Shown: positions 46,643 through 61,629 of the stretch, piece by piece
How positions within the stretch are numbered: the first letter of the stretch is position 1
Layout of the letters: every line of letters begins with the position of its first letter
Source: Glutamicibacter sp. B1
Lineage (GTDB): Bacteria; Actinomycetota; Actinomycetes; Actinomycetales; Micrococcaceae
Length of the DNA: 64,000 bases
NCBI RefSeq assembly: GCF_039602135.1
Contig: NZ_CP125942.1
Span: forward strand, 372,001 to 436,000
Reading direction: 5' to 3'
The notes under the pieces: model-generated
Databases searched by the model: none
Told to the model about the DNA's origin: nothing
Seen by the model: only the letters and a program-made list of their open reading frames with translations
Position numbers and translations under genes: made by a program

Positions 46643-48133
46643 GTGACTGCAACCACATGGAACCGTGCGACGACGCCGGAAAATGGCAATGGCTCCGGAG
46701 AAACACCGGAGATGGATGCTATTGCCTTGGGACGTAGGATTCGCTTCCTTCGCAAGAGCAAACAGATGACTTTGGACGATGTATCGGCCGTGGTCGATAC
46801 CGCGCCGAGCCAACTTTCCCTCATTGAAAACGGAAAGCGTGAGCCGAAACTCTCTCTGCTCAAAGCCTTAGCCGGAGTTTTCGATGTTGGCGTTGATGAC
46901 CTTTTGGGCACTGAACCTCCCTCACGCCGAGCTGCTTTGGAAATTGAACTTGAGCGCGCGCAGCGTGGCCCGCTCTACGAGTCTTTGGGTCTTCCAACAG
47001 TGCGCGTAGGCACCCGTCTTCCTATGGACGTGCTCGAATCATTGGTGGGACTGCAACACGAACTCGAACGACGACTGAATGAACAGGCTGCGACTCCGGA
47101 AGAAGCCCGACGAGCTAATACTGCGTTGCGCCAGGAGATGCGACGTCGCAATAACTATTACAAGGATATTGAGCAGGAAGCTGCCAAAGTGCTCTCGGCC
47201 GTCGGTCACGATGCCGGACCACTTTCTCATCACCGTGCAGCAGACATTGCCGAGCATTTAGGCTTCAGCTTGCGTTTTGTGGGAAATTTGCCGCACTCCA
47301 CACGATCCGTGACCGATCTGAAAAACATGCGTATTTACCTGACTCAGGCTAATCGGACTGAGCATGATCCGCGGTCGGTTCTACTGCAGGCCTTGGGGCA
47401 TCACGTTCTGGGGCATAAGACCCCTACGGATTATTTTGATTTCCTCTCCCAACGCGTGGCCACCAACTACTTTGCAGCGGCGTTGATGTTGCCGGAGAAA
47501 TCAACAGTTGAGTATCTGCGCAGGGCCAAGAATAACCGAGAGTTGGCTATTGAGGATTTGCGCGATGCTTTTGCGGTGTCTTATGAATCCGCCGCGCACC
47601 GATTCACGAATCTCGCCACCGAACACCTTGGTATGACCTGTCACTTCCAAAAGGTTCATGAGTCCGGAATTTTGCATAAGGCCTATGAGAATGATCGTGT
47701 GAACTTCCCTGCGGACCACACCGGCGCTATCGAAGGGCAGACTATCTGCCGATATTGGACCAGCCGTGTCGTCTTTGAACAGATGGATAAATTCCGATCT
47801 TTTGAGCAATATACCGATACCGTCAACGGCACCTTTTGGTGTTCTGCACGTACCGAACGGCACTCATCAGGATTGTATTCGCTTTCTATTGGTGTCCCTT
47901 TTGAGCACGTGAAATGGTTCCGTGGGCGCGATACCAAGGAACGCTGTCAGTCCACCTGCCCTGACGAAAATTGCTGCCGTCGTCCACCAGCCCACCTCTC
48001 TGACCAGTGGTTTGGAAATGCTTGGCCAGCTACGCGTGCCAACACTCACCTGCTGGCGGCGATGCCCACGGGAGCTTTCCCCGGTGTGGATGAAACTGAG
48101 GTTTATAGTTTCTTGCAACGCCAGGAAGGGTGA
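46643..48133 (+). CDS. ramB: RamB-family transcriptional regulator (XRE plus ImmA/IrrE-like)
   Basis: 496 aa. N-terminal XRE helix-turn-helix (LGRRIRFLRKSKQMTLDDVSAVVDTAPSQLSLIENGKREP), a central region with an IrrE/ImmA-like zinc motif relic (LQALGHHVLGHK), and a C-terminal short-chain-fatty-acyl regulator domain ending in the Cys cluster RCQSTCPDENCCRRPP. In Corynebacterium RamB controls aceA, aceB and acetate activation genes; here aceBA lie 1.5-4.5 kb away. GTG start supported by TACTCT at the leaderless spacing. An ATPase gene follows 4 nt after its stop. Confidence 0.88.
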   Translation: MTATTWNRATTPENGNGSGETPEMDAIALGRRIRFLRKSKQMTLDDVSAVVDTAPSQLSLIENGKREPKLSLLKALAGVFDVGVDDLLGTEPPSRRAALEIELERAQRGPLYESLGLPTVRVGTRLPMDVLESLVGLQHELERRLNEQAATPEEARRANTALRQEMRRRNNYYKDIEQEAAKVLSAVGHDAGPLSHHRAADIAEHLGFSLRFVGNLPHSTRSVTDLKNMRIYLTQANRTEHDPRSVLLQALGHHVLGHKTPTDYFDFLSQRVATNYFAAALMLPEKSTVEYLRRAKNNRELAIEDLRDAFAVSYESAAHRFTNLATEHLGMTCHFQKVHESGILHKAYENDRVNFPADHTGAIEGQTICRYWTSRVVFEQMDKFRSFEQYTDTVNGTFWCSARTERHSSGLYSLSIGVPFEHVKWFRGRDTKERCQSTCPDENCCRRPPAHLSDQWFGNAWPATRANTHLLAAMPTGAFPGVDETEVYSFLQRQEG

Positions 48134-48137
48134 GTCT

Positions 48138-48863
48138 GTGGATTTTTCACAGATGTTCTTGCCGGTCAGACGCGTCGAAGCTATTGATCCGGACGCACTG
48201 CTCAGAAACCAGCAGTGGCCCTTTGTTTTACCGGTGGTGCGTCAGTTGCTTCATGAAGGTCTGGATTTTGGGCAAGTGACCATCATTGTTGGTGAGAACG
48301 GAACTGGAAAATCGACGCTCGTTGAAGCCTTGGCGATGGCTTATGGAATGAACGCCGAGGGTGGATCAACCGGTGCCATGAATGCGACGCGACCCAGCGA
48401 ATCAGAATTATGGCAACAGTTGAAACTTGAGCGTGGTGCCGCTGCCTCGCGCAAGGGATTCTTCTTGCGTGCTGAAACCATGCATAATTTTTATACCTAT
48501 CTTGAAGAGTCAAGATTCCAAACTAGATTGCACGAGCGTAGCCACGGTGAGTCATTCCTTGATCTCGTGGAAGAGCGAGTCCCATTTATCCAGGGCTTAT
48601 GGATCTTGGATGAGCCGGAATCCGCGTTGTCTCTTGCTGGCTGCGCAAGACTGATGAAGCTACTGCGAACCATCGCTGATGGGGGATCACAGATCATCAT
48701 TTCCACCCATTCCCCGATGCTCGCTACGTTCCCAGAGGCGCAGATTCTGGAAGTTGGAGCGTGGGGATTACGGGAGAGCCAGTTTGAACACTTACAGCTC
48801 GTGCGTCAGTGGCAAGAGTTCTTCGATAACCCACACGGTTATTGGTTGCGCGACTCAGACTAG
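48138..48863 (+). CDS. AAA-family (SMC/ABC-like) ATPase
   Basis: 241 aa. ATPase with Walker A VTIIVGENGTGKSTLVEALAMAYGMN, a central region FLRAETMHNFYTYLE, Walker B LWILDEPESALSLAGCARLM and a switch His in IIISTHSPMLATFPEA, the layout of stand-alone AAA_21-type ATPases. No partner nuclease or membrane protein is adjacent. GTG 48138 lies 4 nt after the ramB stop and follows AGGAAGGG; the frame further upstream is inside ramB. It overlaps the convergent hydrolase gene by 4 nt. Its role beside ramB is unknown. Confidence 0.85.
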   Translation: MDFSQMFLPVRRVEAIDPDALLRNQQWPFVLPVVRQLLHEGLDFGQVTIIVGENGTGKSTLVEALAMAYGMNAEGGSTGAMNATRPSESELWQQLKLERGAAASRKGFFLRAETMHNFYTYLEESRFQTRLHERSHGESFLDLVEERVPFIQGLWILDEPESALSLAGCARLMKLLRTIADGGSQIIISTHSPMLATFPEAQILEVGAWGLRESQFEHLQLVRQWQEFFDNPHGYWLRDSD

Positions 48864-53404: not shown

Positions 53405-54079
53405 TTAGTCTTTGTGGATTTCGACAATTCCCATGCGCGCCGCTGCCACGAGTGCTTGCACGCGATCGCGAACTTCAAGCTTGGCGAAGATTTTTGCCAT
53501 GTGAGTCTTGACCGTAGTTTCGGTGATGCCCAGAGTTTTAGAGATTTCTGGGTTATTTAATCCCTGAGCAAGTAATTTAAGAATTTGAATTTCTCTACTG
53601 GTAATCCCCAGATCATAAATGAGATCTTCGACGGTTTGCGAATTATCGACATACGCATTGCGAACGGCCGAAATTAGGTCCGAAGAAACCGAAGGTGAAA
53701 TGGCGGCGGTACCCTGATGAACTGCATGAACCGCATTAATAATTTCATCCGGCTCAGAATCTTTAACAAGGTATCCGCTGGCGCCAGCGGTGAGGACTGG
53801 AATCAGATATTCATCCGATGAAAATGCCGTAATTGCAAGGATTGCTGGGCTGTCTATGTGGGATTTGATGGCGCGAGTAGCGCTAACCCCATCCATGATT
53901 GGCATCTGCAAATCCATCAGAACTACGTCGACCTCATGGTCCGAACAATACTCGATTGCCTGCTTCCCATTTTCTGCAGAAAATACGGTTACAATTCCGT
54001 GATCCGTTGCTAGGATTGTGCTCAACGCATGTCGAATAAGGGGTTCATCATCGACGATTAGGACCTTGATTTGTTCCAT
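53405..54079 (-). CDS. NarL/FixJ-type response regulator
   Basis: 224 aa. Receiver domain with IKVLIVDDEPLIRHALS, phospho-acceptor Asp56 in VVLMDLQMPIMDG, and a Lys in GYLVKDSEPDEI. The C-terminal LuxR-type helix-turn-helix reads LTSREIQILKLLAQGLNNPEISKTLGITETTVKTHMAKI. ATG 54079 has AAAGGA 6 nt upstream; the open frame beyond it runs through the divergent promoter and is not used. The gene is divergent from a 59-aa secreted peptide and its cognate-looking histidine kinase. Confidence 0.93.
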   Translation of the reverse strand: MEQIKVLIVDDEPLIRHALSTILATDHGIVTVFSAENGKQAIEYCSDHEVDVVLMDLQMPIMDGVSATRAIKSHIDSPAILAITAFSSDEYLIPVLTAGASGYLVKDSEPDEIINAVHAVHQGTAAISPSVSSDLISAVRNAYVDNSQTVEDLIYDLGITSREIQILKLLAQGLNNPEISKTLGITETTVKTHMAKIFAKLEVRDRVQALVAAARMGIVEIHKD

Positions 54080-54124
54080 TTGTTTCCTTTGAGTCGATGT
54101 TTTTGACCGCCAATCGGCCTGTTC

Positions 54125-54134
54125 ACTTGAAAGT
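54125..54134. promoter_or_regulatory. ACTTGAAAGT box, copy 1 (divergent promoter region)
   Basis: ACTTGAAAGT is a short dyad (ACTT-GA-AAGT). This copy lies between the response-regulator gene and the peptide gene, 45 bp before the former and 29 bp before the latter. The identical decamer is found before the kinase gene. Candidate site for the response regulator. Confidence 0.5.
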
Positions 54135-54163
54135 ATATAAGTTAACGAGATTTGGGGTTCGTT

Positions 54164-54343
54164 ATGAAGGCTTTGAAGATGCTGGCTGTCGCCGCATTGG
54201 TTTTGACACCTTTGACTGCAGTTGCGGCTCCCGCATCTGCGGACTCGGGGCAGATCGGCTCTGGTTCGGTGGCCACACCAGCGGGTTGGGGTGCAGACTT
54301 CGGCATGTGGCTCTGCAAGCACTACGGTGTGAGTTGTCCGTAA
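54164..54343 (+). CDS. Small secreted peptide with two cysteines
   Basis: 59 aa. Clear signal peptide: basic KALK, hydrophobic MLAVAALVLTPLTAVAA and cleavage motif ASA before Asp27. The predicted mature peptide has 33 residues, is Gly- and Trp-rich in its middle (TPAGWGADFGMW) and ends CKHYGVSCP, where Cys51 and Cys58 could close an eight-residue disulfide ring. No family was recognised. It lies between a response regulator (divergent) and a histidine kinase (45 nt downstream, same strand), so it may be the signal sensed by the kinase or a small bacteriocin. ATG 54164 is preferred; an upstream GTG would add MGFV. Confidence 0.65.
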   Translation: MKALKMLAVAALVLTPLTAVAAPASADSGQIGSGSVATPAGWGADFGMWLCKHYGVSCP

Positions 54344-54355
54344 CCGATCTATTTG

Positions 54356-54365
54356 ACTTGAAAGT
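54356..54365. promoter_or_regulatory. ACTTGAAAGT box, copy 2 (upstream of kinase)
   Basis: Second exact copy of ACTTGAAAGT, overlapping a possible -35 TTGACT at 54353 and 23 bp before the kinase ATG. Its recurrence at both promoters of the locus suggests one shared regulator. Confidence 0.5.
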
Positions 54366-54388
54366 CGTTGCCGTGAATTATTCGGCAT

Positions 54389-55573
54389 ATGAGTGAACGA
54401 CTAAAAGGCACCCTGACCAAGCACCTTGCTGGCCGGGGTGTCATCATTTGGGCTGGAATGGCGATTCTCATTGCCGTCTCCAGCAGTGAATTCGTTACCC
54501 TTCTGCAAGAGGGATTTAGCGGTTCCTCAGACGTATCTATTCGCGGTGCCCTTGTTGGGGTGGGGCTCTGCGTAGCTCTAGCGTTAGGGTTTCGCTGGAT
54601 CGCCGTATCTCTTGGCCTTTTCGTCGCGGGCGCATACTTCTTCTTGAATGATGCCTCGTTATTCTTCTGGACCATAGTTTCATTCATGGTGTTCGCATCA
54701 CTAGCGGCCACTGTTAGTGCACGCAGCGTCCGAGGTCTTTTCCTGACGTTGACTGTTGCATGGATGGTGCAATTTGGAATTCAGGCTGGAAGCGATGCGG
54801 TACTGCTCGTGGCGTTGGTGCCGTTGACGCTCCTGGCCTACTTTTTAACGCGAAGTATCTATGTCTTGCGCGAGAAAAACACTGAAGCGGTACGACAAAT
54901 GCAGAAAGCTCAGCAACAGACTCAACTAGCCATTGAGAGGGAGCGGAAGAACATCGCTCGCGATCTTCATGACATCGTCGCCCACGACATCACCATCGTG
55001 GTAATGCAATCAAAGGCCGCCAAGTTTGCTAATGATGGACAAATGGCTCTGGAGACCCTCGATGTCATATCCAAACTGAGTTCCGAGACCCTGCACGACT
55101 TGCGTCTGATGCTAAACGTTTTGAGAGCCGACGGAACGATGTCCGATGAGGCCGGGTCTGCTGTCGATAAACCTGCCGCAACGACGGTATATGCACTTCA
55201 GGGTGTGGATTTATTTGCTCAACGACTTCGAGACGCAAACTTTAAAGTGACCTCAACCACGGATGAGAAGATTTCGGAACTTCCTCGTTCGGCACAAACC
55301 GCGATCTATCGCGTGATGCAAGAAGGTACAACGAATGTCATAAAACACGGTGCCCCCGATACATCGTGCACTCTTGAGCTGGTGTCCAACGGAACTGAAG
55401 CTGTACTAGAAATTACTAATCAGATCGATGTTTCGGGTACGAAATCAAAGGGATTGCCTGAGGGTGGAAGCGGTTTGGTTGGAATGTCCGACCGAATGCG
55501 CGCTTTTGGAGGAAAGTTCTCGACCCGCGCCGAAAAAGGGCAGTGGATCCTTCGGGCCAGCATCCCGTTCTAA
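54389..55573 (+). CDS. Sensor histidine kinase, HisKA_3 (NarL-partner) type
   Basis: 394 aa. Five or six membrane segments in residues 17-153 with very short loops, so no large extracellular sensor domain; a coiled-coil linker (AVRQMQKAQQQTQLAIERE) follows. The dimerisation/phospho-acceptor helix reads RKNIARDLHDIVAHDITIVV with His194. The HATPase has QEGTTNVIKHG (N box) and GGSGLVGMSDRMRAFGG (G box). The partner is very likely the NarL-type regulator encoded divergently 300 bp upstream. Sensing within the membrane fits ligands such as small peptides or envelope stress. Confidence 0.92.
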   Translation: MSERLKGTLTKHLAGRGVIIWAGMAILIAVSSSEFVTLLQEGFSGSSDVSIRGALVGVGLCVALALGFRWIAVSLGLFVAGAYFFLNDASLFFWTIVSFMVFASLAATVSARSVRGLFLTLTVAWMVQFGIQAGSDAVLLVALVPLTLLAYFLTRSIYVLREKNTEAVRQMQKAQQQTQLAIERERKNIARDLHDIVAHDITIVVMQSKAAKFANDGQMALETLDVISKLSSETLHDLRLMLNVLRADGTMSDEAGSAVDKPAATTVYALQGVDLFAQRLRDANFKVTSTTDEKISELPRSAQTAIYRVMQEGTTNVIKHGAPDTSCTLELVSNGTEAVLEITNQIDVSGTKSKGLPEGGSGLVGMSDRMRAFGGKFSTRAEKGQWILRASIPF

Positions 55574-55916: not shown

Positions 55917-57122
55917 TTACGCTTCTGGTGTTTCGGAAGCCGCATCGTGCTTCAGCACATGATCCGAGACCTTACCCAGCGCGCGCTCCAACGACGAGCG
56001 AAGCACGAGTGGAACGGTGATCAGATCGTCGATTTCCACAAGGCCTTCACGTTCAAAGATACGAAGCAGGGATTCAACCTGTGGCACAACCTCTTCCAAG
56101 CTCGGGATCAGGTGATGCTGCTCTGCTGGAAGATCATCCTGGGTAGGGATCTGCAGAGCAAACTCGGTGCGCGGAGGAGTGGACGAAGCGGCGTTGCTCA
56201 GAACACCAGCAACCATTTCGGCGATCTGCGCTTGGCCTGGCTTTTCCAAGGTGTTGATCAGGATGTGCGAGTACAGCACTTCCGCGATCAGTTCCTTAAC
56301 TACGCGCGAACCTGCCCCGCTTGAAGCAAGCAATGCTTCGCTCAATGATTCGGTCGGCTTAGCGTTAGGTGCTTGGTAGGTCAGCATGGCGGTGCCGATC
56401 AGCGCGTCCCAGTACGCGGAAAGCCGGGGGATGTCGGCCAGCGCGGGAACTACAGTTCCATCCTCTGGCTCCCAGGCGCTCTCTTCAGGCGCGTCAGCAC
56501 TTTCATCGACCTTGATGAATAGGCCCAATGCTTGGGCAGCGTCCTGCAAGGTTTCGCCGGTCAGCACGCCGGCGGGAGTGCTCGGCTTGCCCGCGCCAAC
56601 CCACTGGATCAGTTCACGAGCGGCAAACACAAATGGCATCGATTCGAATGCGCCATTGGCTTCATCGTCTTCTAGGAAAGGTGCGACGATCGGCGAATCT
56701 CCAGCCATACGTGAGAGGAACTCAAAAGTCTGTTTGAAGTCCTCGACGCTGCCGCCAAAGTTAGCGGTGGTCCCTAGGAACGTGAGGTAGTGCTTGAGGA
56801 TCGCGGCGCTGGTTGCTGCGACCTCTTTACCCAAGGACGATAGGTGACCAAGCTGCTCACCAAGAATCGTTGGATCCAGCGACTGGACATCAACACTTTT
56901 GCGCAACTGAGCGTGCACCGTCAGCAAGGTGGTTAACCCTTCGATGGCTGCACGCGTTTCGCTGGCTGGCTGACCTTCTTCTTGGAAATGGCGGAAGAGC
57001 TGAGACTTAAACGGTTGAAGCGCCTGACGTACTTCAGTCTCGAAAGGCACGGAGCTAGCTCCTGCTCGGCGGGCCGGGTGTCCCTGCGCTGATTTCTTTT
57101 TGGCTGGTTTACGTGAGGCCAT
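55917..57122 (-). CDS. Hypothetical protein
   Basis: 401 aa, soluble, with a basic Lys/Arg/Pro N-terminus (ASRKPAKKKSAQGHPARRAG) and then a mostly helical acidic body (TTLLTVHAQLRKSV, ELIAEVLYSHILINTLEKPGQAQIAEM, FEREGLVEIDDLITVPLVLRSSLERAL). No signal peptide and no known motif were recognised. It might be a cytosolic or nucleoid-associated protein given its basic tail, but this is a guess. Monocistronic, with a terminator after its stop. Confidence 0.7.
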   Translation of the reverse strand: MASRKPAKKKSAQGHPARRAGASSVPFETEVRQALQPFKSQLFRHFQEEGQPASETRAAIEGLTTLLTVHAQLRKSVDVQSLDPTILGEQLGHLSSLGKEVAATSAAILKHYLTFLGTTANFGGSVEDFKQTFEFLSRMAGDSPIVAPFLEDDEANGAFESMPFVFAARELIQWVGAGKPSTPAGVLTGETLQDAAQALGLFIKVDESADAPEESAWEPEDGTVVPALADIPRLSAYWDALIGTAMLTYQAPNAKPTESLSEALLASSGAGSRVVKELIAEVLYSHILINTLEKPGQAQIAEMVAGVLSNAASSTPPRTEFALQIPTQDDLPAEQHHLIPSLEEVVPQVESLLRIFEREGLVEIDDLITVPLVLRSSLERALGKVSDHVLKHDAASETPEA

Positions 57123-59933: not shown

Positions 59934-60350
59934 TTGAGCAACGCAGAGCCTTTTGTGCCGGAGCCTTCTAGCGCAGGTCCGGTGCAGGCCGTATCAGCGA
60001 TGGGATTCCCTTCGCCTGCCCGGGACTATTTTGACGGTGGTCTGGATCTGAACAGGTTGCTGGTCAAGGATCGAGTGTCAACCTTCATTATGCGCGTTAG
60101 TGGCAATGCCATGCGCTCTGCAGGAATTCACGATGGCGACGAAGTCATTGTGGACCGTTCACTCTCCGTCCGTGATGGCTCGGTGGTCATCGTCAATCTT
60201 AACGGCCAGATGCTGGTGCGACGCTGGCACATTGATGGACCCAAAGTCGGATTACTCAGCGACGAATCACCATTACCTGTGTGGCTAACCGAAGGCGATG
60301 AAGTCGGTGTCTTCGGAGTGATTACAAGGTGTCTACATTATGTCCGTTGA
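59934..60350 (+). CDS. UmuD-like protein lacking the protease residues
   Basis: 138 aa, same length and layout as E. coli UmuD, the SOS-mutagenesis partner of Umu[21 protein letters not shown] matches the UmuD region around the self-cleavage site. However, the catalytic GDSM block reads SGNAM, so the nucleophilic Ser is Ala, and the Lys dyad region reads LVRRW, so the Lys is Arg. Self-cleavage should be impossible. An internal ATG at 60000 encodes MGFPSP, exactly the start of the processed form UmuD'. The TTG 59934 start has GAGGTG 5 nt upstream. Overlaps umuC by 11 nt. Confidence 0.85.
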
Positions 60351-61629
60351 CCACGTGTCCCTAGTGGACGTGAACAACTTTTATGTCTCCTGCGAGCGAG
60401 CCTTCGACTACTCCTTACGTAACCGACCGGTCGTCGTGCTTTCGAACAATGATGGGTGTGTTGTCGCGCGATCCCAAGAAGCCAAAGACCTAGGTATCGC
60501 CACCGGTGAACCGTTCTTTAAGATCCAGCGGCTCATGGATAGCCACAACCTGGCGGTACGTTCGAGCAACTATGAGCTCTACGGCGATATGTCCGCGCGA
60601 GTTATGGAATTGCTGGGCCGCTATGGAACTTGGCATGAGGTCTACTCCATTGATGAATCATTCATCGGTTTGGAAGGCAACCTCGAACAGGTGCGTAGCA
60701 CCGCGGCTCAGATTCGAAAGGCCATTGATAAGAGTATCGGTGTCCCTGTTTGTGTGGGGGTCTCTTCGACAAAAACACTGGCCAAGTTGGCTAACCACAT
60801 CGCCAAGCACAATCCAGGACTTGGTGGCGTATGTGTTCAGCAACTGATGGATCGTTCTGTGTTGGACAATATTCTCTCCCGCGTTCCAGTCACTGATGTT
60901 TGGGGCGTCGGAAGGAAATCCGGGGCCAAGCTCACGAGCATGGGTATTGAAACGATCGCGGACTTACGGGATGCCGACCCGTTGCTTATCCGCAAAAAGT
61001 TTTCCGTGGTTCTTCAACGTACCGTTTTTGAACTCAACGGGCAGCGTTGCATCGGGCCCGTGGAAGAACGCGCCGACCGTGGACAGGTCATGTTCACCAG
61101 GTCCTTTTCGACTCCGGTACGAACTTACGAGGCAATGGAAGAAGTCATGTCCATCTACGCGCAAAAGGCCGCCAGCCGATTGGCCAGTGAAGGACGCTAT
61201 GCCACGTTATTAACCGTCACTGCAGGCACCAGCAGGTTTGCTCAGGGCGAGGCCTCGTTCCCCAGCGCCCAAGTACGCCTCCCACGACCGACACGAGATC
61301 CAATTCTGCTCAGCAAACTAGCCATCGCAGCCATGCGGGACTTGATGCAGCCAGGAATGGACTATGTGCGCGGGGGAGTAATCCTATCGGGGCTCAGCGA
61401 TTCGCCAGGAGAAAAACAACTAGACCTATTTGAACTTGGAGACGGGCAAGAGGAAGAACAGAAGAATGTTTCTTCGGTAGTCCAGGATATTTCCGCACGC
61501 TTCGGCGCAAAGTCCATCGGCTTGGGGCCTGCAGGAATGGCGCAGAGTCCGCAGTGGACGATGAAACGCGAACACATATCCCAGCGCTACACCACCGAAT
61601 GGGATGAGCTTTTAGAAGTTCGCGCCTAG
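60340..61629 (+). CDS. umuC: UmuC-type Y-family DNA polymerase
   Basis: 429 aa. Error-prone translesion polymerase (DNA polymerase V catalytic subunit type). Y-family motifs: [42 protein letters not shown], the catalytic [14 protein letters not shown] with metal-binding Asp/Glu, [20 protein letters not shown], and the helix-hairpin-helix [24 protein letters not shown] UmuC-specific C-terminal domain follows (DUF4113-like end [15 protein letters not shown]). It overlaps the UmuD-like gene by 11 nt, so the two are translationally coupled. Only one GTTCGA half-site is seen upstream of the pair; a full SOS box was not found. Confidence 0.94.

Follow-up and report, generated by a model that had tools for sequence, protein, structure and literature searches.

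What does a small secreted peptide do when its gene lies between those of a response regulator (RR) and a sensor histidine kinase (HK)? The question is raised by a locus of Glutamicibacter sp. B1 that lies within the 64,000 nucleotides (nt) analyzed here (contig NZ_CP125942.1, positions 372,001 to 436,000; this whole stretch is called the window), which belong to a genome of 3.6 Mb in one contig (G000). A first-pass annotation, made by a model from the letters of the window, had described a peptide of 59 amino acids (aa) between a divergent NarL-type RR and a polytopic HisKA_3 HK without a large sensor domain, and had proposed that the peptide is either the ligand of the kinase or a small bacteriocin. 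This three-gene layout with its Sec-type peptide holds, as does the description of the kinase, for which a crude hydropathy scan returned five membrane helices. We conclude that the locus is probably a self-contained peptide signaling cassette, in which a disulfide-loop peptide, exported by Sec and made without a dedicated enzyme, is sensed by the neighboring kinase. The reading of the peptide as a ligand is well supported, though not proven, by two patterns in the sequences, namely the co-occurrence of peptide and kinase and the geometry of the peptide ring.

Among 58 relatives searched, the peptide was present in all 18 Glutamicibacter genomes (that of the window included), and outside this genus the same search returned only weak matches, with E values of 0.009 or worse. 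The order RR-peptide-HK was kept in 18 of these 18 genomes with the reading frame intact and with gaps of 78-86 nt on the RR side and 41-59 nt on the HK side (84 and 45 nt, respectively, in the window); the start codon of one kinase, L017, was not settled in this comparison. Absence or frameshifting of the peptide beside a retained RR-HK pair, which the annotation had named as evidence against a peptide system, was seen in none of them. For the window, an ATG start yields the 59-aa precursor and an alternative TTG start yields 63 aa, and we prefer the ATG because the alignments fit it. The precursor comprises a signal peptide, a spacer, and a core (MKALKMLAVAALVLTPLTAVAAPASA / DSGQIGSGS / VATPAGWGADFGMWLCKHYGVSCP), and 33 residues remain after the signal peptide, which ends in ASA. 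Residues P39, A40, G41, W49, C51, Y54, and C58 are invariant in 28 aligned peptides.

Selection on the locus was examined through pooled ratios of nonsynonymous to synonymous change (pN/pS), which were 0.35 for the peptide overall, 0.22 for its signal, 0.31 for its core, and 0.80 for its spacer, and 0.42, 0.27, and 0.22 for the HK membrane part, the HK catalytic part, and the RR, respectively; these values are only rough because synonymous sites are near saturation. The peptide signal and core are under purifying selection, and the spacer is near neutral. When RR-HK intervals were shuffled, a signal-like open reading frame (ORF) with a C-terminal Cys pair appeared in 0.9% of trials (mean of 48 loci; 2% for the interval of the window and 5% for the highest single locus), which, set against the peptide in 18 of 18 genomes and the purifying selection on it, leads us to reject a chance ORF. 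The partner kinase is most divergent where a ligand would bind, with a mean p-distance in Glutamicibacter of 0.47 for the membrane domain versus 0.27 for the catalytic part. Over nine kinases scanned by crude hydropathy, we counted 4-6 membrane helices joined by short loops, and a large extracellular domain was absent from all nine. H194 is invariant in 34 aligned kinases, and the HK catalytic part matches solved DesK structures.

The peptide is also found outside Glutamicibacter. Its profile was searched in 395 Micrococcaceae genomes and then, with new members added, in 394, and full-length relatives were found in the genera g44, g48, g15, and g4, which named database entries identify as Paeniglutamicibacter, Neomicrococcus, Micrococcus, and Citricoccus, respectively. 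The peptide and the three-gene order, which the annotation had proposed to look for in Micrococcaceae, are thereby found in five genera. Every full-length match inspected outside Glutamicibacter sits between an RR and an HK; for Paeniglutamicibacter, 14 of the 15 matches from the second search were inspected (G210 was left out). Neither partner was near seven inspected weak matches (G051, G064, G167, G304, G354, G456, and G580), one of which, G304, is at a contig end.

Across the five genera, the peptides share a ring of near-fixed size and variable content. At the loci inspected, all 50 peptides have six residues separating the two cysteines; this count excludes genus g13, the loci from the order-level search, and L210 (the second kinase of G180, which has a Cys-pair ORF). 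Two of the peptide entries used (L161 and L162) are short by one residue in the signal region, which leaves the ring unaffected. These 50 peptides carry 38 distinct rings, and 17 are distinct among the 18 of Glutamicibacter. Position 4 of the ring is Gly in 46 and position 3 is Y, L, F, or W in 49, while the residue two before the first Cys is Trp in 38 of the 50 and aromatic in 45. Among database homologues, six residues lie between the cysteines in 86 of 90. Three Citricoccus-type homologues (P0064, P0073, and P0075) have a shorter ring, with four residues between the cysteines (FFCWFGFCG type), which is the sole departure from six among the returned Micrococcaceae homologues. No curated Pfam or NCBIfam family covers the peptides, and the window peptide has no Pfam match at 1e-3. 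One homologue of the window peptide, P0010, is labeled 'methionine-rich copper-binding protein CopC', which is likely a mis-annotation, as its sequence gives the label no support.

Because a peptide-led search would find only peptide carriers, we used a kinase profile for searches of genera and of the order. In Micrococcus, an orthologous kinase (350-470 bits) was found in 9 of 11 genomes, and a secreted Cys-pair peptide lies between divergent RR and HK in 9 of these 9. In the other two genomes (G105 and G186), the sole kinase match is distant (184 bits) and differently arranged, and no peptide of this kind adjoins it. In the eight Citricoccus genomes, the peptide lies beside 7 of the 7 kinases that could be checked, the eighth being cut by a contig end.

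We propose that the cassette works as follows. The Sec pathway would export the precursor, cleavage would occur directly behind ASA, and the resulting mature peptide of 33 residues might be trimmed further through the near-neutral spacer. A disulfide between the two cysteines would close an eight-residue loop, in most cases with an aromatic residue at position -2 from the first Cys, and this loop would bind the membrane domain of the adjacent HK. Autophosphorylation of the HK at His194 would be followed by transfer of phosphate to the divergent NarL-type RR, presumably at Asp56 (by count, within the motif VVLMDLQMP), a role that we assign from the sequence and from knowledge of the family. The RR would then control, by activation or repression, the peptide-kinase promoter plus a regulon of genes elsewhere, in a manner expected to depend on cell density. 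The peptide would most likely be a chemical message between cells.

Several observations weigh against this proposal. The co-conservation of peptide and kinase that the first-pass annotation had put forward as a check is seen in Micrococcus (9/9) and Citricoccus (7/7), but it breaks down in genus g13: the kinase profile matched in 21 of 23 g13 genomes (one with a distant kinase only), and 13 of the g13 kinases (g13A) stand beside a divergent RR but lack a neighboring peptide gene. This is the absence that the annotation had named as contrary evidence, seen here in a genus more distant than the close relatives it had in mind, and it indicates that the kinase can exist without the peptide. Little weight can be placed on the apparent lack of a peptide in the Micrococcus genomes G105 and G186, given that the profile used in the second search also overlooked the peptides of five Micrococcus genomes that have one. 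Ring size has exceptions among the 90 database homologues, with four residues in three of Citricoccus type and five in one from Georgenia. In Glutamicibacter, a partial Mantel test of the peptide against the HK membrane domain gave r = 0.065 (p = 0.27). Over the 50 loci, the corresponding values were -0.03 (p = 0.75) for the core and 0.125 (p = 0.004) for the ring, yet the ring correlated more with the catalytic part (0.26). Coevolution of peptide and membrane domain beyond phylogeny has no specific support. Correlation with kinase and RR distances in Glutamicibacter was r about 0.4 for the peptide core versus 0.7 for the signal peptide. At the promoter, the element GTATATAAGT lies 5' of the peptide gene in 15 of 18 Glutamicibacter intergenic regions; a longer promoter element is a single site with no second copy in the genome when up to three mismatches are allowed, and because it is single-copy, no regulon is visible. 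Conserved inverted repeats that could serve as RR sites at the peptide promoter were found at only some loci, being clear in 4 of the 13 Paeniglutamicibacter loci examined.

Other g13 kinases adjoin peptides of a different kind. Beside seven (g13B, L192-L198) lies a small, unrelated hydrophobic peptide whose end reads C-x8-C (e.g., FFCAAFPRSSSC), five of which were identified by script and two (L193 and L198) by eye after the hydropathy filter missed them; these peptides have a hydrophobic N-terminus and no evident cleavage site. One g13 genome contains a further locus, L201, with a C-x7-C peptide (FFCQYVDPFYCD). These Cys-pair peptides suggest that the ligand may have been replaced in g13. 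We also considered a ligand fused to the N-terminus of the g13A kinases (from FWSCR) and set it aside, as this segment looks like the usual pre-helix stretch. In the kinase tree, which is drawn with a midpoint root, a branch with values of 92/95 (just under the starred level) sets apart 70 kinases, which belong to g13 and the five genera. Twelve peptide-less g13 kinases fall inside this clade, beside g13 kinases with Cys-pair peptides, and the position of the thirteenth, L185, was disregarded because a faulty extraction left only 11% of its columns filled. The simplest history would be an old peptide-kinase unit that was lost and replaced in g13.

Beyond the family, we searched 396 genomes of the order with the peptide profile, and no listed match outside Micrococcaceae reached the C-terminal Cys pair, a negative that reflects a limit of the profile because the L117 peptide (G611, probably in that draw) was not listed. 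The kinase profile, applied to 356 genomes of the order at E <= 1e-50, returned 17 kinases, two of them from Glutamicibacter. Nine of the other 15 have a divergent RR directly upstream, one being the g13 kinase L116, and outside Micrococcaceae a secreted Cys-pair ORF lies in the gap for 4 of the 8 kinases with an upstream divergent RR. The L117 peptide ends in ..GRWACKRLGLFC, with the same core (W.C[KR]..G..C); among 24 genomes of its family, the complete peptide was recovered only from its own, and five others gave weak partial matches. The L118 peptide (..LNCFFFKRC) is identical to a Georgenia faecalis protein, that of L120 (..LMCVVLKKRC) has a full-length counterpart, 91% identical, in one of five congeners, and that of L123 ends in ..LCDLIPELCPPHLR. 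L130 has a secreted Cys-pair ORF, but its RR is co-directional. With the criteria fixed for the shuffle, 3 of the 9 loci with an upstream divergent RR pass the same script, the L118 ORF being outside the script interval.

Short leaderless Cys-pair ORFs lie in the RR-HK gap of L127 (G631; MFGVVPMGFWTWLCEASGFCK) and L129 (G550; MFASSIWTALCKLLRACS). The gap of L124 (G661) and of L125 (G563) holds a conserved leaderless ORF, MGIFY[VI]FGKMIGIFR, without Cys. The leaderless ORFs of these four loci are possible ligands of related kinases. These order-level cases are suggestive rather than established because their kinases lie outside the 70-kinase clade, on long branches. A class-wide kinase search of 296 genomes found matches in five, and the two new ones are not in an RR-peptide-HK arrangement; on plasmids, only four Streptomyces records matched, over about half the kinase and at 31-33% identity. 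A broader proposal is that the cassette represents an undescribed actinobacterial class of pheromone, an enzyme-free, Sec-exported disulfide octapeptide that diversifies from species to species in a pherotype-like manner and is replaced across the order by unrelated Cys-pair or leaderless peptides beside related kinases; to this proposal we give even odds.

The cassette largely stands alone in its surroundings. In Glutamicibacter, it is flanked by a Clp ATPase gene on one side and by a gene for a 401-aa protein without known function on the other. Pfam scans of 11 neighboring proteins in the window identified a Clp ATPase, an alpha/beta hydrolase, an FAD oxidoreductase, an S24 peptidase with a Y-family polymerase, a glycosyl hydrolase, and helix-turn-helix (HTH) and AAA-ATPase genes, with two proteins in no family; none of the 11 is a prenyltransferase, an AgrB-like protein, or a dedicated peptide exporter. 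A gene 5 kb away (47922-48860) encodes an AAA/ABC-type ATPase domain, with AAA_21 as the best match. On the HK side, at 59934-61626, the S24 peptidase-like gene precedes the Y-family polymerase gene as a UmuDC-like pair. Across neighborhoods of 12-18 kb in Glutamicibacter, Paeniglutamicibacter, and Neomicrococcus, the cassette has no other immediate neighbor in common. Relatives of the window genes at 55920-57122 and 46643-48130 lie within 10 kb of the cassette in Paeniglutamicibacter, and Citricoccus G020 and the Micrococcus-type G172 have two further gene clusters in common, within about 6-8 kb of the cassette. The comparison revealed no transporter, peptidase, immunity, or modifying/maturation gene common to the genera, although it is not firm because ORF calling is unreliable in high-GC flanks. 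At the Neomicrococcus loci L148 and L152, genes that resemble an oligopeptide ATP-binding cassette (ABC) transporter, judged from sequence starts only, adjoin the cassette; they were not seen in the other genera compared.

Table. Coordinates within the window of the genes and elements of the peptide-kinase locus.
Feature	Position	Strand	Details
NarL/LuxR-type RR	53405..54079	-	224 aa; receiver and GerE HTH; Pfam Response_reg 3e-30, GerE 2e-18
Promoter-like element TTGAAAGTATATAAGTT 5' of the peptide gene	54127..54143	+	possible -10 and/or regulator site (putative function)
Secreted peptide precursor gene	54164..54343 (with stop codon)	+	59 aa; in 18/18 Glutamicibacter genomes; pN/pS 0.35
Sec signal peptide, residues 1-26, end ASA	54164..54241	+	from alignment; pN/pS 0.22; cleavage predicted from A-x-A motif
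Hypervariable spacer, residues 27-35	54242..54268	+	length and sequence vary; pN/pS 0.80
Conserved core, residues 36-58	54269..54337	+	roughly V.xPAGxGxxFxxWxCxxYGxxC in Glutamicibacter; alignment of 28 sequences
C-terminal ring C51-KHYGVS-C58	54314..54337	+	octapeptide; putative disulfide closure; spacing kept across five genera
Polytopic HisKA_3 sensor HK	54389..55573	+	394 aa; HisKA_3 7e-15; catalytic His194
HK membrane domain, about residues 14-155	54428..54853	+	candidate peptide receptor; from hydropathy; high divergence

The peptide promoters of Micrococcus and Citricoccus (L157-L165 and L202-L208) have a -10-like element about 6-7 bases before the ATG, which reads CATAAT or CATACT in 6 of 9 Micrococcus loci and GATAAT in 6 of 7 Citricoccus loci. 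This position is as expected for leaderless transcripts, which these loci may produce. In two Micrococcus loci, the repeat TGACGnnCGTCA also lies just upstream.

We weighed three other explanations for the peptide. It could be an accessory, non-diffusing subunit of the sensor, whose Cys pair reports redox, export, or envelope stress and hence the state of its own cell. DesK and LiaS, which the HK catalytic part resembles (LiaS only weakly), sense membrane or envelope state; the invariance of both cysteines, the short loops of the kinase membrane domain, and the uncleaved appearance of the hydrophobic g13B N-termini would also fit such a subunit. However, a redox reporter does not need 38 different rings at near-fixed size, and the near-neutral spacer resembles a tail that is cut away or ignored, so we consider this explanation unlikely. 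Still less probable, in our estimate, is that the ORF is untranslated or non-functional and owes its conservation to promoter or RNA constraints: it is short and close to a promoter, but its pN/pS of 0.35 is relaxed only in the spacer, its frame is intact in 18 of 18 species, and a homologous protein core extends across five genera, which together make this reading extremely improbable.

Between these two in probability, and highly unlikely, is the second alternative of the first-pass annotation, a small bacteriocin (or another public effector) under control of the kinase and regulator. The peptide is secreted, small, and divergent between species, as such an effector might be, and it shows a sub-threshold likeness to lactococcin 972 (E 0.062 for the window peptide and 0.011 for the best of 21 members, with 3 of the 21 matching at E up to 1). 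This match involves mostly the signal and spacer and not the ring, because it covers residues 1-45, and membership in the lactococcin 972 family was rejected at 13.6 bits versus a curated cut-off of 32.1. An immunity, export, or transporter gene common to the genera was not found, and a bacteriocin would leave unexplained why the peptide tracks one kinase clade. The ligand alternative is favored by the co-occurrence with the kinase in five genera and by a ring that is near-fixed in size and variable in content.

Candidate ligand, receptor, and regulator are found together here in genera that include Micrococcus luteus, a common skin bacterium. If the peptide is indeed the ligand of the kinase, the signal would be a three-gene, modification-free system whose peptide is within reach of solid-phase synthesis and of direct tests, and the loci would provide a ready set of natural ligand-receptor pairs for studies of how specificity evolves. 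For Firmicutes, the sensing of peptide pheromones by membrane kinases is textbook knowledge. We found no description of the cassette in the available portions of the open-access literature on quorum sensing by peptides in Actinobacteria, Micrococcus, and Glutamicibacter (PMC4748050 and PMC13136126 included), a scope that leaves out most subscription journals and preprints, and within that scope the statement of the first-pass annotation that it knew of no described actinobacterial system of this composition stands. In G158, which we take to be M. luteus NCTC 2665, the divergent pair lies near 0.32 Mb. The accessible text of a study of M. luteus presents Mlut_14100/14110 as an operon, places a mutation there at position 1541663, and links its regulator to competence (PMC8467076). 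These genes are probably not the cassette locus, being an operon at another position rather than a divergent pair.

A secreted peptide that is encoded and conserved with a polytopic kinase and an RR, the general hallmark of peptide pheromone-two-component systems, is found at the cassette loci, with g13A as the exception. DesK, LiaS, and UhpB, which work with NarL regulators, share the kinase catalytic family and the regulator family, but the NCBIfam equivalog cut-offs were far from reached (62 versus 408 bits for UhpB and 48 versus 450 for LiaS), and we know of no kinase of these types that is encoded with a secreted peptide. The double-glycine pheromones of the ComCDE and Pln type are likewise encoded beside their own kinase and regulator. 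Those peptides have a double-glycine leader and dedicated ABC transporters, whereas the peptides described here carry a Sec signal, and the cassette includes no shared transporter. The Agr system resembles the cassette in its kinase of about six helices without a large sensor domain and in its small, variable C-terminal ring. However, the Agr signal is a thiolactone that AgrB makes, and it acts through an HPK10-type kinase and a LytTR regulator, in contrast to the HisKA_3 and GerE domains found here, and neither AgrB protease nor AgrD propeptide was detected in Pfam and NCBIfam scans of the peptides or, for Pfam, in the 11 neighbors.

The closest likeness is to ComQXPA (ComX-ComP-ComA of Bacillus subtilis), in which a short peptide gene lies immediately upstream of a polytopic kinase and the RR combines a receiver with a GerE-type HTH. 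ComP is of the HisKA_3 type, and the cassette likewise pairs a HisKA_3 kinase that has a polytopic membrane domain with a NarL-type RR; like ComX, its peptide has a Trp near the C-terminus. According to the accessible part of a comQXPA census, the ComA HTH is PF00196, and the RR is more conserved than the kinase, whose membrane part is most variable (PMC4008528), a gradient that our own distances share. The cassette differs from ComQXPA in that it has a Sec signal and a Cys ring in place of a prenylated Trp, and a divergent RR in place of four genes on one strand (PMC4008528). The ComX family was not among the four families listed when 21 peptides were scanned at E up to 1, and no ComQ-like prenyltransferase or polyprenyl synthetase domain was found among the 11 neighbors. 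In that part of the census, comQXPA requires ComQ and is reported from no phylum outside Firmicutes (PMC4008528). Membership in ComQXPA or Agr was rejected for want of ComX and ComQ, of AgrB and AgrD, and of a LytTR-type RR, and because the RR is divergent. Taken together, the best reading of these comparisons is that the cassette may work like ComX-ComP-ComA, with a ligand that is unrelated.

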